Source: Treponema sp. (GTDB taxonomy: Bacteria > Spirochaetota > Spirochaetia > Treponematales > Breznakiellaceae). Taken from it: a DNA stretch of 33,834 nucleotides. The notes under the pieces were generated by a model. The model was given only the letters and a program-made list of their open reading frames with translations, was not told the DNA's origin and ran no database searches. Both the position numbers and the translations under genes were made by a program. The DNA is taken from the NCBI GenBank assembly GCA_031276295.1, contig JAISNI010000127.1, positions 1-33,834 of the forward strand, written 5' to 3'. Shown here piece by piece: positions 1,663 through 16,069 of the stretch (the first letter of the stretch is position 1; each line of letters starts with the position of its first letter).

Positions 1663-2406
1663 ATGTTGTATAGAAATATGCGTTTGGAAGATATTGTTAT
1701 TATCCTTGCCGGGCCGGGGGAGGCAGGGAATATAGGGGCGGTCTGCCGGGCTATGAAGAATATGGGGCTTAGCCGACTGCAGCTGGTCAGCCCCCAGGAC
1801 GGGGCGCTCAACCAGGAAGTGATCCGTGCACGGGCCGTACACGCGGCGGATCTGTGGGACCATGCGAAAACCTGTGAAACCATAGCGGAGGCCGCCGCCG
1901 GATGTTCCCTGGTTGTCGGGATAACCCGCCGTCGGGGACGCCGGCGCAAGGCCCATACCCTGCCGCCCGATGAATTGGCGCGCTTCCTCAAAGACCAAAA
2001 CGGCCGGGCCGCCTTGGTCTTCGGCAACGAGCGTACCGGCCTTGAAGACGGCGAACTTGCCTGCTGCAATCTGGCTTCGCATATCCCCGCGGACAGCGCC
2101 TTCCCTTCCCTCAATCTTTCCCATGCCGTGCAGATATACTGTTACGAATTATACCGCAGCCTTGCCCCGGCGGAAGCGGTGGAAGGTCAATGGATACCCC
2201 TGGATCAGGCCGGTATTCAGGATTTAACGCTACAGGTAACGGATTCCCTCGAATCTTTGGGTTTTTACAGGCAACGGGGCAGGCAGGATCAGGAGATTTT
2301 TTTCCGTGATATTTTTTCCCGGGCCGGTATTACCGAGGGGGAAGCCCGTTATATGCGGGATATTTTTGCCAAAGCAGCCCGGCTTGCACTAAAAGGGCCT
2401 TTATAA
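1663..2406 (+). CDS. trmJ: TrmJ-type tRNA/rRNA 2'-O-methyltransferase (SPOUT/TrmH family)
   Basis: This 247-residue protein has the three SPOUT methyltransferase motifs in order: 'GNIGAVCRAMKNMGL' near the N-terminus (RNA contact and catalytic Arg), 'ALVFGNERTGL' in the middle, and 'FPSLNLSHAVQIYCYEL', which forms the S-adenosylmethionine-binding knot. The domain order and C-terminal helical extension match TrmJ, which methylates the 2'-OH of position 32 in tRNA, more than TrmL (shorter) or RlmB (extra N-terminal domain). The start could instead be the ATG at 1678, giving 'MRLEDIVIILAGPGEAGN', which lines up better with the N-terminus of the E. coli protein. Neither start has a convincing ribosome binding site. 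It acts in the cytoplasm on RNA. The exact target is inferred. Confidence 0.85.
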   Translation: MLYRNMRLEDIVIILAGPGEAGNIGAVCRAMKNMGLSRLQLVSPQDGALNQEVIRARAVHAADLWDHAKTCETIAEAAAGCSLVVGITRRRGRRRKAHTLPPDELARFLKDQNGRAALVFGNERTGLEDGELACCNLASHIPADSAFPSLNLSHAVQIYCYELYRSLAPAEAVEGQWIPLDQAGIQDLTLQVTDSLESLGFYRQRGRQDQEIFFRDIFSRAGITEGEARYMRDIFAKAARLALKGPL

Positions 2407-2426
2407 AGGCGCTAGGCACACTCTGA

Positions 2427-2666
2427 TTAGGCTTCCGCCGTTTCCGCAAGAGCCATTTCCCGGCGGATCATGTCGTTAATCAGTTCCGCCGGTGTTTTAT
2501 TCGTAGCCATCATCTTTACTTTAAGGTATTCAGCGGAAAATGTGCCAAGAATAATCGTTCGTTCACGGTTTTTGATAAACGGCCCTTGAACATTGGCGTC
2601 CGCTTCTTCATCAGTTATAATCTTTGCCTGCACCGGTGCCAGGCACCTCTGGTAGCAGCCCGACAT
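2427..2666 (-). CDS. Small hypothetical protein, possibly ribbon-helix-helix-like, N-terminus disrupted
   Basis: A 79-codon frame whose C-terminal half, 'ERTIILGTFSAEYLKVKM' followed by an acidic/basic helix ending 'INDMIRREMALAETAEA', has the strand-helix-helix pattern and size of a CopG/RHH antitoxin-like protein. The resemblance is weak. Its first residues are encoded across the GTGCCAGGCAC palindrome at 2635-2647 and the tail of the RAYT remnant, so the original N-terminus has probably been replaced. An in-frame GTG lies inside the palindrome. No ribosome binding site is visible and no toxin partner lies next to it. It may be a gene fragment. Confidence 0.35.
   Translation of the reverse strand: MSGCYQRCLAPVQAKIITDEEADANVQGPFIKNRERTIILGTFSAEYLKVKMMATNKTPAELINDMIRREMALAETAEA
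2635..2647. repeat. REP-like palindrome GGTGCC-A-GGCACC (downstream side of RAYT)
   Basis: A perfect 6+6 inverted repeat around one central base. The same GTGCC-N-GGCAC core occurs at 2982-2994, 3011-3023 and 4746-4758. Palindromes on both sides of a RAYT-type gene are the arrangement known for REP sequences mobilised by their associated Y1 transposase. Confidence 0.6.
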
Positions 2667-2933
2667 ACGACAGGCGGGTCATATCGGTATAATCAACCAG
2701 ACCGGAAAGATTATGCCTGATGTAATACGCGCCCGAGGCTTTCCGAGCAGGTGTATGTGGGTCGGCATAATACAAAAATTGGCAAGCCGAAAGCTGAATT
2801 TTTCCTTGGCGTCCTTGAGGACAAGCAACATGGTTTTTCTCCCCACATTGCACTCAAAGACCCGCTTTTTGTCATTGGTACGGGACGTAACGTGATACGC
2901 CGCCCCTTCAATGAATTCCCGTTTTTTCCGCAT
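2650..2933 (-). pseudogene. REP-associated tyrosine transposase (RAYT, Y1/HUH family) remnant
   Basis: Starting at the ATG at 2931-2933, preceded by GGAGGT six bases upstream, the frame reads 'MRKKREFIEGAAYHVTSR' and reaches 'FCIMPTHIHLL'. These are the N-terminal strand and the HUH metal-binding motif (H59, H61) of IS200/IS605-like Y1 transposases of the RAYT subgroup. After HIHLL the homology is lost across shifting frames ('GKPRARITSG', 'SLGRVLHQA'), and the frame stops near 2679 without the helix carrying the nicking tyrosine. RAYTs are usually 150-250 residues, so more than half is gone. It is flanked by REP-like palindromes. It should be inactive as a nuclease. Confidence 0.8.
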
Positions 2934-2939
2934 AAAAAT

Positions 2940-2968
2940 ACCTCCGTACTTATATATGGTACGGAGGT
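2940..2968 (-). promoter_or_regulatory. Hairpin sequestering the RAYT ribosome binding site
   Basis: ACCTCCGTAC at 2940-2949 and GTACGGAGGT at 2959-2968 form a perfect 10-bp stem with a 9-base AT-rich loop. On the minus-strand transcript the second arm contains GGAGGT, the only good Shine-Dalgarno sequence for the RAYT start at 2933, six bases from the ATG. Folding would hide it. IS200-type transposase mRNAs are known to be held down by just such leader hairpins. The role here is inferred from position. Confidence 0.6.
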
Positions 2969-2981
2969 GTCGTTTTGCTTT

Positions 2982-3023
2982 AGTGCCGGGCACTTTTTTT
3001 TAAAAAAATTGGTGCCAGGCACC
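2982..3023. repeat. REPIN-like pair of palindromes; probable bidirectional terminator
   Basis: Two palindromes, AGTGCC-G-GGCACT (2982-2994) and GGTGCC-A-GGCACC (3011-3023), are separated by a T8/A7 tract. The halves are themselves complementary, so the whole can fold as one long hairpin, the REPIN layout. Read on the minus strand, GGTGCC-T-GGCACC followed by AATTTTTTT lies just past the stop codon of the lipoprotein gene and looks like its intrinsic terminator. Read on the plus strand, the first palindrome followed by eight T residues does the same. Confidence 0.6.
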
Positions 3024-3032
3024 CCTGCGCCC

Positions 3033-4457
3033 TTACTCCGCCGCTTGGGCAACCGTAGCCGGAGTCCCCACAGGAAGCGGGGCCACCACATCGGTATCAG
3101 GCACATAATTCAAGCCACCAGCTATCCTTTCTGTCACCGCCACATCATCCTTAAATGCCCGCAACTCCTCACAGTCACCCATCTGGGTAATCAACGCATC
3201 AACAAAGGCCTTGAGGCTCTCCGTTTGCAACACCCCTAAGGGAGTATCCGGATTGGAAACGGACAGACCCAATACCTCAAGCACAAGGGGCCGGATGCCG
3301 TCACGATAAGCACCAGCCTGTGCCGATGGATTTACGCCTATCTCAGAGATAGTTGTACCACGAAGATTATTATAAGTGCCAGTACGCCCCCCATCGCCTA
3401 TCCCGCTGGCAGTACGAGCACTTATATACCCCGTTCTTGCTGTTTCAAGTTCACCATCAGCCGCCATCTTCCAGTCACGGGTAATCAAATAATTCAATTT
3501 CTGATGTGCATTAAAATATTTATCAAAACTCGTCGCTGACTCGCCGTCCATCTTACCACGAAGCAAACCACGAATACCTTCACCCACAGTATCCATATTG
3601 GCAAGGAAATTATTCAGCGTTATATTAGAGTCAGCCGCGGCTTTGCCCTGGCGTATCTGGTCCTCGTAAGCCTGTAATTGGTTAAGTATAATGGACGCAT
3701 CCTCACCCTGGTTCCGTATGCTCATAATGTACTGCTCAATATCCGCCGCCTGCTGTGACAGTGCCGTCAGAATTTGCCTTATACTGCTGGGCGCACCTTC
3801 ATACAATTCAGTAACAGAGTGATCAGAAGAGACAATTTTGCTAACCACACCAACATCAGTCCTATTTTTGAATGCCTCAAGAGTTCCGCCCGGAAGGTAG
3901 TAATGTGTAGGCACGCTCAATGAGGGTGGGGTGGTGATTTCATCTGTGGGAATTTCCTCCACAGGCTGACCGGGCTCTGGGAAAATCGGAGCGGGTTTTT
4001 CTGCATCCCTATCTATTTCTCTGCCTGTCGGCGTATAGCGGGTTATACGACCTCCACCCGGAAGGAGGTCATCCGTCAGAGAAATAGTCTCATCAGTCTC
4101 CACAACAAATTCCCTAATAACCCTCTTCTCTTGCATCATCTCTTGCAATATTGAAGGATTATCCTCCTTCTCGAACCATTGAACTCTGGAATCAGTATTC
4201 GGATTATCATCATAGAAGACCCAGATAGTCTCTTTTTGTATCGTCCTGGTCTCCGGCTTTGTAGGGTCCTGGTTGTTGGGGTTGTTTGGGTCATTTGGGT
4301 TGCTGGGATTATTGGGCGAACCCTGGTCCGGGTCTGTCCCCACCAAGTTACCGCACCCTACCAACGATGCGGTTGCCATCACACCCGCAAGTGCTAAGGT
4401 TGGCAAAACCATCCACCTTTTTTTCCCGCTCTTTTCCTGCTGTTTTTTCTGTTCCAT
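3033..4457 (-). CDS. Putative outer-membrane or periplasmic lipoprotein, function unknown
   Basis: A 474-residue protein with a lysine-rich N-terminus, a hydrophobic stretch and the lipobox 'SLVGC' with acceptor Cys35, so it should be lipidated and anchored by signal peptidase II processing. A low-complexity Asn/Pro linker (residues about 42-66, 'NNPSNPNDPNNPNN' style) then separates the anchor from a mostly hydrophilic body with helical stretches such as 'QILTALSQQAADIEQYI' and 'INDQIRQGKAAADS'-like segments. I recognise no catalytic domain. The start is supported by AAGGAGA just upstream on the minus strand. Base composition is lower in G+C than MurA or the liv genes, so acquisition by transfer is possible. 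Transcription probably ends at the palindrome at 3011-3023. Confidence 0.75.
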   Translation of the reverse strand: MEQKKQQEKSGKKRWMVLPTLALAGVMATASLVGCGNLVGTDPDQGSPNNPSNPNDPNNPNNQDPTKPETRTIQKETIWVFYDDNPNTDSRVQWFEKEDNPSILQEMMQEKRVIREFVVETDETISLTDDLLPGGGRITRYTPTGREIDRDAEKPAPIFPEPGQPVEEIPTDEITTPPSLSVPTHYYLPGGTLEAFKNRTDVGVVSKIVSSDHSVTELYEGAPSSIRQILTALSQQAADIEQYIMSIRNQGEDASIILNQLQAYEDQIRQGKAAADSNITLNNFLANMDTVGEGIRGLLRGKMDGESATSFDKYFNAHQKLNYLITRDWKMAADGELETARTGYISARTASGIGDGGRTGTYNNLRGTTISEIGVNPSAQAGAYRDGIRPLVLEVLGLSVSNPDTPLGVLQTESLKAFVDALITQMGDCEELRAFKDDVAVTERIAGGLNYVPDTDVVAPLPVGTPATVAQAAE

Positions 4458-4758: not shown

Positions 4759-5091
4759 ATGATAAGAAAATATTTTTTACACATCGCGCTTCCTCTGTTT
4801 GTGCTGTGTCTGGCAGCGGGCCTCTACGCGGCCGGTGCAAGCCGGTGCAGGTTCTGCGGGTCCCAATCTTACGGCAGCGGCTGCCCCTACAACGTAAACG
4901 GAAGGTATCATGTGCATATAGGCGATGAACAATCCTGCGTCTACTGCGGTTCCTCTTCCTATGGCAGCGGTTGTCCCTATTCCCCGTCCCGAAAGCATAT
5001 ACACGGCCACGGCGCAAAGTGCATCTACTGCGGTTCAACCTCCTACGGCAGCGGCTGCCCCTATTCCCCGCACCGCTACCATGAAAGATAA
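4759..5091 (+). CDS. Small secreted protein with three Cys-rich CxxCGS-SYGSGCPY repeats
   Basis: A 110-residue protein. Residues 1-23 form a signal peptide ('MIRKYFLHIALPLFVLCLAA'). The mature part is almost entirely three repeats beginning at C30, C60 and C88, each of the form C-x2-C-G-S-x-S-Y-G-S-G-C-P-Y followed about seven residues later by one or more His. Three Cys plus His per unit suggests metal binding, a zinc-ribbon-like knuckle, or disulphide bonds after export. I do not recognise a named family. I chose ATG 4759 over the in-frame GTG at 4747 because 4747 lies inside a REP palindrome; AAGGGG at 4742-4747 could be the ribosome binding site. MurA follows 48 bp downstream on the same strand. 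Confidence 0.75.
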   Translation: MIRKYFLHIALPLFVLCLAAGLYAAGASRCRFCGSQSYGSGCPYNVNGRYHVHIGDEQSCVYCGSSSYGSGCPYSPSRKHIHGHGAKCIYCGSTSYGSGCPYSPHRYHER

Positions 5092-5139
5092 GCGCCGCAA
5101 ACGGCTAGACGCCCATGCCCCCCGGCGGTACAGTGAACT

Positions 5140-13927: not shown

Positions 13928-16069
13928 ATGAAAACTAAACATACGGTACTGTTGTATACCCTGAGTTTTTTGTTTGTGCTGCCGGCGCCGGTTTGCGCGC
14001 AGGAGAGTGTTTCTGCCCCGCAGAAATTCGCGCTCGTGATAGGGAACGCGGCGTATACGCAGGTTAGCCCGCTACGGAACACGCTGAACGATGCGGCGGA
14101 TGTGATGGCGGCGCTTGAGGGTCTGGGTTTCGAGGCGGAGCTTCTGACCGACGGGACCCTGCGACAGATGGCGGCGGCGGTTGACCGCTTTGCCCGGCGG
14201 CTGGGCGCGGCGGCGGATTCCTACGGCTTTTTCTACTATTCGGGCCACGGGGTACAGTCGCAGGGGGAGAACTTCCTGATACCGGTGGACGCGGACATCC
14301 GGCGGGAAGCGGATCTGGCCTACGAAGCGCTGCACGTTCAGCGGGCGCTGGACTACCTGCAAGAAGCGGGGAACCGGCTGAACGTGGTGGTGCTGGATGC
14401 GTGCCGGGACAATCCGTTTAGCTGGGCGCGGAGCGGAGGCCGGGGGCTTACGGTTACAAGCCGCCAGCCGCCGGGGAGCATAGTCGTGTACGCGACGAGC
14501 GCGGGATCAACGGCCTCGGACATATCGGAGGGCGGGACCGGGCGGAACGGTCTTTTTACGGCGGAACTGCTGAAGCACCTCAAGACGCCGGGGCTGGAGG
14601 TAAAAGAAGTCTTCAACCGGACGGGCGCGGATGTGAGCAGGGCGAGCGGCAGCCGGCAGATACCGGCGGTATATTCGCAGTTCTTCGGCACAGCCTACCT
14701 GGGGAAGGCGCCGCAGGCGGTATCTGAGCCGCAGGCCGCGCCCTATACGCCGCCCGCGCCGCAGTTTGGGCCGATAGCGGCCGCCGTAGGGAACCTTGAG
14801 GTAGCGGCGGCAACGGCCGGTACGCTGAACATACGGGGCGGCGGCCTTGACCGCGACGTTCCCTTTACCGTTGGGGGGACGCTGCCGATTAGCGGCCTGC
14901 AAACAGGGACGTACCGTCTTACAATGAACTACAGGGACGGGAAGACCGAGGAAAAGACGGTGGACGTGGAGGCAGGGCAAACGGCGAAGGCAAGTTTTAA
15001 CTACCGTATACCGCCCGCGACCGCGCCTGCCGTTGCGTCCGCTCTCTACCCGCCCGGGAACATAAAGGCGGGAACACCCGGATACGATTCTATCCCCCTG
15101 TCCTGGGACAGCGCAGGAAGCGGGATAAAGTACCGTGTGTATTATGGAACGGTAAACGATCCCAGCAAGGCAAAACTATACGATATTATACTGGACAGGA
15201 CCAATGCCGTAATACCGAGGCTTGAAGGCAATCAAACCTATTATTTTTGGATAAGCTCCCTGGACGGCGTTGAAAGCGTCAAGAGCGGCGCGGTAAGCGC
15301 TCGGACACGCCCCGTGCCGGACGAGTTTGTGCGGATACCGAGCGGTTCCTTCCTCATGGGGAGCCCTGCCTCGGAAGCCGGGCGTTGGGACGGCGAAGGG
15401 CCGCAGCATAGCGTAACGGTGGGCGGCTTTTTCATAAGTAAGTACGAAGTAACGCAAAAGGAATGGAAGGCGGTGATGAGGAGCAATCCCAGCTATTTTA
15501 AGGGGGATGACCTGCCGGTAGAAAACGTAAGCTGGTACGATGCGATAGAGTACTGCAATAAGCGGAGTGTAAAGGAAGGTTTGACTCCGGCGTATACGCG
15601 GAATGGGGACAGTGTAATGTGGAACCGGAACGCGAACGGGTACCGGCTGCCGACTGAGGCGGAGTGGGAGTATGCGTGCCGGGCGGGGACAGCCGGGCCG
15701 TTCAGTACGGGGAACAATATCACGACGGGTCAGGCGAACTATAACGGGAACTATCCGTACAACGAGAATGTGCAGGGAGAGTACCGGGAGAAAACGTGGA
15801 ATGTGGGGAGCGGAGCGGCAAATGCGTGGGGACTGTACGATATGCACGGGAACGTGTGGGAATGGTGCTGGGACCGGTACGGGAGCTATGATGGTAAGGC
15901 GCAGACCGATCCGGCAGGCCCTTCGGACCCTGCGTCCTCGGATGCGGACCGTGTTGAACGCGGCGGAGGCTGGAGCGCCTACGCGCAATACTTGCGTTCC
16001 GCCAATCGGAACTACTACACTCCGTCCGGCCGGGTCGGCAACCTTGGCTTCCGGCTCGTGCGCCCTTAG
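13928..16069 (+). CDS. Secreted caspase-like peptidase (C14) fused to a SUMF1/FGE-fold domain; probable DGR target
   Basis: A 713-residue exported protein. Residues 1-24 are a signal peptide ending 'PVCA'. Residues 32-260 are a caspase-fold peptidase with the dyad His107 ('YYSGHGVQ') and Cys159 ('VVLDACRDNP'). A Pro/Ala linker leads to a PEGA-like beta domain (about 288-360), a fibronectin-III-like domain (about 372-462) and a SUMF1/FGE (C-type-lectin-like) domain from 'EFVRIPSGSFLMG' (468) to the end, with 'YRLPTEAEWEYACR' and 'MHGNVWEW'. The C-terminal stretch lacks the cysteines of catalytic formylglycine-generating enzymes, so this domain probably binds ligand. Its last codons have the pattern of a DGR variable region (annotated separately). 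AAAGGAG precedes the ATG. Inferred role: an export-targeted protease switched on by a variable recognition domain. Confidence 0.88.
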   Translation: MKTKHTVLLYTLSFLFVLPAPVCAQESVSAPQKFALVIGNAAYTQVSPLRNTLNDAADVMAALEGLGFEAELLTDGTLRQMAAAVDRFARRLGAAADSYGFFYYSGHGVQSQGENFLIPVDADIRREADLAYEALHVQRALDYLQEAGNRLNVVVLDACRDNPFSWARSGGRGLTVTSRQPPGSIVVYATSAGSTASDISEGGTGRNGLFTAELLKHLKTPGLEVKEVFNRTGADVSRASGSRQIPAVYSQFFGTAYLGKAPQAVSEPQAAPYTPPAPQFGPIAAAVGNLEVAAATAGTLNIRGGGLDRDVPFTVGGTLPISGLQTGTYRLTMNYRDGKTEEKTVDVEAGQTAKASFNYRIPPATAPAVASALYPPGNIKAGTPGYDSIPLSWDSAGSGIKYRVYYGTVNDPSKAKLYDIILDRTNAVIPRLEGNQTYYFWISSLDGVESVKSGAVSARTRPVPDEFVRIPSGSFLMGSPASEAGRWDGEGPQHSVTVGGFFISKYEVTQKEWKAVMRSNPSYFKGDDLPVENVSWYDAIEYCNKRSVKEGLTPAYTRNGDSVMWNRNANGYRLPTEAEWEYACRAGTAGPFSTGNNITTGQANYNGNYPYNENVQGEYREKTWNVGSGAANAWGLYDMHGNVWEWCWDRYGSYDGKAQTDPAGPSDPASSDADRVERGGGWSAYAQYLRSANRNYYTPSGRVGNLGFRLVRP
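15962..16069 (+). repeat. Probable DGR variable region (VR) at the 3' end of the FGE domain
   Basis: The last 35 codons encode 'RGGGW' followed by a stretch ending 'GFRLVRP', aligned with the variable region of DGR target proteins such as Treponema TvpA. Where the family template has Asn (AAC) codons, this sequence shows AGC, GCC, TAC, TAC, AAC, TAC, TAC, TCC, GGC, GTC, GGC and AAC. All keep the third-position C and differ at the first two positions, as expected if only template adenines are randomised. The invariant scaffold (LRSANR, TP, LGFR) between them is kept. No template repeat, reverse transcriptase or Avd gene is in the window, so diversification would have to act in trans. Confidence 0.65.

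Follow-up and report, generated by a model that had tools for sequence, protein, structure and literature searches.

An export-type caspase-family protein of Treponema with a TvpA-like domain and a retroelement-type variable C-terminus

The gene described here lies on the plus strand of a 33,834-nucleotide stretch of Treponema DNA (the window, meaning the whole stretch that was analysed). The open reading frame runs from 13928 to 16069, with coordinates and stop codon verified, and its product has 713 residues. A caspase-type domain is joined through a spacer to a domain of the FGE (formylglycine-generating enzyme) fold, which ends in what looks like the variable region (VR) of a target of a diversity-generating retroelement (DGR). 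The features are as follows.

13928..16069, plus strand: whole gene (P0001, 713 aa), exported-type caspase / spacer / FGE-fold protein with a DGR-type variable C-terminus
13928..13999, plus strand: signal-peptide-like N-terminus MKTKHTVLLYTLSFLFVLPAPVCAQ (sequence by eye, N-terminal helix in the predicted model, N-termini of relatives)
14024..14680, plus strand: caspase domain, Peptidase_C14, residues 33-251 (Pfam E 1.4e-35)
14246-14248 and 14402-14404, plus strand: catalytic His107 and Cys159, the caspase dyad
14786..15313, plus strand: spacer of two beta modules, PEGA-like at residues ~287-357 and FN3-like at ~371-462 (strands of the predicted model, FN3 and PEGA matches in paralogues)
15320..16063, plus strand: FGE-sulfatase / C-type-lectin-fold domain, residues 465-712, TvpA-like (Pfam E 9.7e-55)
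15932..16065, plus strand: DGR-type VR, homologous to the template repeats (TRs) of relatives, with changed NNC codons at template AAC (TR/VR comparison)
16043..16065, plus strand: invariant VR 3' end CTTGGCTTCCGGCTCGTGCGCCC, by analogy a candidate initiation-of-mutagenic-homing segment
16093..16120, no strand assigned: perfect 9-bp G+C-rich inverted repeat with a 10-nt loop, 27 bp past the VR, a putative counterpart of known DGR target hairpins

The Peptidase_C14 and FGE-sulfatase matches are both far above the Pfam cut-offs. An initial annotation of this DNA had claimed an intact caspase dyad, and this is borne out. His107 and Cys159 align with an invariant histidine and cysteine in 20 relatives (21 sequences aligned), so that alignment and Pfam together give the caspase fold and His-Cys dyad that define Peptidase C14. 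Among solved structures of caspase fold, the MALT1 paracaspase comes closest to residues 30-220, although identity is low and MALT1, unlike the window protein, is a eukaryotic cytosolic signalling protease. The signal peptide that had been proposed is recognizable by eye, and a signal-like N-terminus is a conserved feature of the family, judged in the same way in nearly all relatives; two of them, L106 and L145, have lipoprotein-like starts. Judging from sequence, the window protein is probably exported and probably proteolytic. The PEGA- and FN3-like spacers fared less evenly. Two beta modules are present in the predicted model and have matches in paralogues, but in the window protein itself the Pfam match to FN3 (residues 375-448, E 0.0028) falls below threshold and PEGA is not matched, so the names of the two modules are borrowed from the paralogues and are provisional. 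The AlphaFold model (mean pLDDT 70, pTM 0.40) is good for the caspase domain and for the bulk of the FGE core, but the spacer is modelled poorly.

The SUMF1/FGE-fold domain of the annotation is equally clear. By sequence, the top solved relative of the protein is TvpA (PDB 2y3c, E 5e-33), with MALT1 as the match on the caspase side. By fold, the top PDB match of the model is again TvpA (E 6e-17), followed by MALT1. The Pfam FGE match reaches residue 712 of 713, which places the VR at the C-terminus of a C-type-lectin fold, as in DGR targets.

Is this domain an enzyme? In formylglycine-generating enzymes the catalytic cysteine pair is located near the C-terminus. The window protein has no such pair, its last cysteine being residue 647, with none in the last 66 residues and hence none in the VR. 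Because the VR lacks cysteine, the domain is better read as a binding domain than as a formylglycine-forming one. Kinship at the level of Pfam and NCBIfam models to FGE, PvdO, EgtB and others could still favour an enzymatic domain, formylglycine-generating or of another kind within the FGE superfamily, by which a partner of the protease is modified, and partner modification has been speculated for bacterial metacaspase-FGE fusions (PMC3501461). However, the region where FGE carries its catalytic pair is here not only free of cysteine but hypervariable, and the best match is TvpA. An enzymatic role is therefore very improbable. The same survey, of 2012, counted the combination of Peptidase_C14 with FGE-sulfatase in 33 of 671 sequences, so the architecture as such has precedent; what differs is that the FGE domain is taken as an enzyme there, and that the survey drew no link to a DGR.

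The ten neighbouring ORFs that were examined encode transporters, an oxidoreductase, chemotaxis, metabolic and similar functions. They therefore offer no local argument for a defence island, and the PADLOC match of the window gene is to a generic caspase model only. This bears on the likeness to DGR-based conflict systems, in which hypervariable CLec/FGS sensors are combined with protease effectors (trypsin, caspase, CHAT; PMC10907252; PMC7159879). Those systems are cytosolic and NTPase-based (STAND, MoxR-vWA) with adapter domains, whereas here neither NTPase nor adapter components were found in the protein (by Pfam) or among the ten neighbours.

The VR had been placed in the last 35 codons, with twelve scattered NNC codons. 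The codons are there (GAC, AGC, GCC, TAC, TAC, AAC, TAC, TAC, GGC, GTC, GGC, AAC), and at these positions the TRs of relatives carry mostly AAC. However, the VR is longer than supposed, with TR homology extending from about 15932 to 16065, or the last ~45 codons. In a DGR, an error-prone reverse transcriptase (RT) would copy TR RNA and randomize its adenines, and the mutated cDNA would then replace the VR, leaving varied residues at template AAC codons in a fixed scaffold. Hairpins similar to the downstream inverted repeat lie 3' of many, though not all, VRs of relatives. They are not decisive as evidence of a target site, since some TRs have one too.

Six genes of the same genome share one C-terminal scaffold, namely the window gene and genes on contigs C240, C155, C162, C232 and C12. 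The N-terminal parts of these paralogues differ: CsgG/TolB-like plus FN3, FGE alone, PEGA-FN3, or Zn-ribbon plus coiled coil. The C162 gene is truncated by the contig end and has a spacer very like that of the window protein, which suggests that it may be a second caspase gene. Identity between the window protein and the five others is 72-80% in the FGE domain upstream of the VR and 59-68% in the VR. The annotation had predicted an excess of variation at NNC codons among paralogues, and this is what is seen. When columns are classed by 13 independently found TRs of relatives, 12-15 of the 22 TR-adenine columns (A in at least 70% of the TRs) differ between the window gene and each paralogue, as against 5-8 of the 66 columns that are never A in the TRs. 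The excess is above chance in all five comparisons (Fisher p 1e-4 to 5e-8).

Could plain FGE paralogues have come to differ through selection and gene conversion, without any retroelement? Such proteins are abundant, and GFRLVRP at the VR end looks like the conserved terminus of FGE domains at large. Yet the variation falls at columns that are adenine in TRs found independently, and when homologous caspase-FGE genes are compared with a TR lying beside an RT, 12-19 adenines are changed but no other letter. These TR/VR comparisons and the paralogue column counts largely refute such an origin, which is left scarcely credible.

The comparisons come from relatives. Within the genus there is one further genome, G001. 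It holds an FGE-type VR, TR, HRDC accessory and RT in one stretch (G001:C68), and between its TR and VR 19 of 30 adenines are changed and none of the 104 other letters. Across the bacterial family, the predicted TR has matches in 30 of 200 genomes at the threshold applied, many of which have HRDC and RT genes adjoining. The cassette of TR, HRDC accessory and RT, which is the TvpA type of spirochaete DGR, is present in G001, G164, G115, G133, G027, G003, G187 and others. The most complete case is G164:C43 (L121), where one cassette comprises a caspase-FGE-VR gene (1812-3443), HRDC (3553-4011), RT (to 5009) and TR (4993-5126), with 19 of 33 adenines changed and 0 of 101 non-adenines. G133 has two caspase-FGE genes on contigs other than that of the TR (12/34 and 16/34 adenines, 0/100 non-adenines for both), and G027 has one such remote gene (13/32 and 0/102). 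A second caspase VR of G027 mismatches that genome's TR at 29 of 102 non-adenines, and the caspase-FGE gene of G003 differs from its TR at 22 of 33 adenines and 6 of 101 non-adenines. The design also occurs outside spirochaetes. A betaproteobacterial MAG (L158, CANKAJ010000072.1) has a cassette of caspase-FGE-VR, Avd, RT and TR with 15 of 31 adenines and 1 of 93 other letters changed, and its Avd scores above the NCBIfam DivGenRetAVD cut-off. Changes are thus confined, or nearly so, to adenines in G164, G133, G027 and L158, and caspase-FGE genes with predicted export-type N-termini are genuine DGR targets, both in at least one proteobacterium and in spirochaetes of several genera.

The window gene's own genome is a different matter. 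Its assembly (G000) comprises 3.38 Mb in 247 contigs and is 83% complete. The annotation had looked to this genome for a TR and DGR RT. In the 83%-complete assembly no FGE-type TR was found by DNA similarity (E up to 10), by a consensus TR or by a degenerate pattern; the last gives 0 hits here and at least one in each of six relatives used as positive controls. No FGE-type RT and no HRDC accessory were found in the assembly either, the sole HRDC being a domain within a larger protein. Thus, in the assembled 83%, no cognate TR with DGR-type RT accompanies the window gene. The RTs that are present, on C177 (L020), C187 (L002) and as a fragment on C50 (L071), are of phage type. Those on C177 and C50 lie among tail/baseplate-like genes, the target on C177 is unlike the window gene, and C187 agrees in RT type and layout. 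Their phage-type surroundings and the unlike target and TR rule them out as the cognate source. Matches on C6 and C135 were also dismissed as TRs, being VR 3' ends behind 21-bp repeats.

ORFs in the Avd position accompany the phage-type DGR RTs of C177, C187 and C50; for the one on C177, neither Pfam nor NCBIfam gave a match. On G108:C27 (L094/L136) another member of this caspase family has a C-terminal domain resembling the phage-type DGR target of C177 (WWWEASPDSGSAQYFCGV...APAFCVR). No TR/VR relation emerged, since the second copy differs by indels and at many bases. Phage records gave matches at the level of FGE, with no caspase fusion among the matches listed.

The annotation had the retroelement acting from elsewhere. 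In G133 and G027 caspase targets do lie on other contigs than the TR; the RTs of the window gene's own genome are of phage type, with unlike targets. The window VR also has peculiarities. Its scaffold (CGCAAnACTTGCGTTCC...) departs from that of the five paralogues at non-adenine letters (CAA/CAG, TTG/GTG or GCG, TCC/TCT, ACT/ACC), the 3' flank common to the five is missing, and at least 17 of ~100 non-adenine sites differ from the TRs of relatives. The scaffold differences and the missing flank suggest that the VR was written from another TR, or long ago. The gene may be a remote target with its TR in the unassembled ~17% of the genome, or else an orphan left after loss of the DGR.

Because TR, HRDC and FGE-type RT are all missing from the assembly and the VR scaffold is its own, perhaps the window gene is indeed an orphan: diversified by an ancestral DGR whose TR and RT have since been lost, and now evolving in the ordinary way. 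The second caspase VR of G027 mismatches its genome's TR likewise, and T. denticola strains with targets and without RT or TR have been reported (PMC4891356). Against this, the assembly is 83% complete in 247 contigs, and such repeats tend to break assemblies; the same-genus relative holds a complete DGR; and in the window VR the scaffold is intact, the frame open and the NNC codons kept. Present-day orphanhood is quite possible, if short of probable. It is a sub-case of what the preferred explanation leaves open, and the confidence placed in the two overlaps.

That explanation, which we regard as likely, is an export-type caspase protease with a TvpA-like FGE domain whose tip has been written by a DGR, the domain targeting or activating the protease outside the cytoplasm. 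The protein would consist of a caspase-type cysteine protease, beta spacers and a C-type-lectin (FGE-fold) domain with a ligand-binding tip, as suggested by analogy with TvpA-type proteins. The FGE-fold domain would serve as the recognition module, its binding directing the protease or releasing it.

Another way to look at the protein is as a TvpA-like surface adhesin in which the caspase is incidental and merely self-processes or anchors it. Other FGE-VR proteins of the genome do without a caspase (CsgG/TolB-like, Zn-ribbon plus coiled coil, FGE alone). However, many genera have caspase and FGE joined, all 21 aligned sequences keep the dyad unchanged, and the same caspase family bears other binding-type C-termini, which makes an incidental caspase unlikely.

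How widespread is this caspase? At E up to 1e-30 it occurs in 72 of the 200 genomes of the bacterial family. Source records name Treponema MAGs; from the isolate names, we take these to be largely from termite gut. FGE is carried by 35 of 65 distinct caspase ORFs, a similarity-ranked sample in which the proportion is no census, and the rest have TPR, LRR, WD40 or other C-termini. On a caspase tree from a quick search, 18 changes of the FGE label are required, of which well-supported branches force at least 9. Since the label changes so often, the C-terminal modules appear to have been swapped repeatedly, and a single caspase design is paired with what look like many recognition modules. A wider idea can be put forward tentatively. 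In an exported caspase family, swappable modules (DGR lectin tips, TPR, LRR, WD40 and others) might direct or trigger extracytoplasmic proteolysis. This would in effect be a recognition-guided protease, anticipatory and template-diversified, that evolved in gut-type treponemes and was reused at least once in a betaproteobacterium with an Avd-type DGR. Deltaproteobacterial export-type caspases (L162, L166, L178, L182, L192) have a variable-looking end domain finishing ALPVRS(G/A), which may be another lectin-like recognition tip; no RT was found in the retrieved flanks of these genes.

The closest known system is the T. denticola TvpA DGR (PMC4891356; PDB 2y3c). Shared with it are the C-terminal FGE-fold VR, the AAC-rich TR, the HRDC accessory between TR/VR and RT (in relatives) and several dispersed or remote FGE-sulfatase targets per genome, of exported type. 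However, descriptions of the T. denticola targets give FGE (lipo)proteins with no protease part, whereas here a caspase sits on the target, and CsgG/TolB-like or Zn-ribbon/coiled-coil parts occur on others. The initial annotation had thought the combination unusual, and it is less so than supposed. Cyanobacterial DGR variable proteins whose N-terminal part is orthocaspase-like likewise join a caspase-type peptidase to a DGR-diversified C-type-lectin domain; they are mostly predicted to be cytosolic, with some secretion noted, and are discussed as signalling proteins (PMC7517822). The present proteins differ in phylum, in having signal-peptide-like N-termini throughout and in their spirochaete HRDC-type DGR. 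Caspase-CLec targets in cyanobacteria and dispersed FGE targets in T. denticola are thus already known; what is new is the exported-type spirochaete caspase family with its swappable C-terminal modules. No exported spirochaete caspase was found described as a DGR target in the literature on diversity-generating retroelements and caspases, as represented mostly by its open-access part.

Cellular DGR targets of known function are very few. In this one, where a diversified domain is attached to a protease with both an intact dyad and an N-terminus of export type, enzyme activity could serve as a readout of ligand binding. The caspase-FGE system could therefore provide a direct test of what a cellular DGR recognizes and of whether an effector is switched by the binding. 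The design recurs in many genera, and the complete cassettes of G164 and the betaproteobacterial L158 offer clean systems for such study.

Some minor observations concern the paralogues. In the C232 gene (L024:7338-7445) a 1-base insertion near the VR end shifts the frame, and the product ends HAWLPARAPLV, not GFRLVRP. On C155 (L022:6522-9454), about 0.2 kb past the end of the FGE-VR gene, lies a gene for a caspase that shares 80% identity with the window's and has an LpoB-like C-terminus in place of FGE. On C6 (L026:1-471) and at the minus-strand end of C135 (L027), VR-type 3' ends (RDNHLGFRLVRP and RDYGLGFRLVRP) stand in frame behind 21-bp tandem repeats encoding VETLGRE/VRTLGRG, as if the repeats had replaced or invaded a VR. 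Finally, a conserved stretch 3' of the VR genes on C240 (L021) and C162 (L023) contains short ORFs starting MEDAIAP, and on C6 and C135 the 21-bp repeats come after a similar stretch (MEDAIA).
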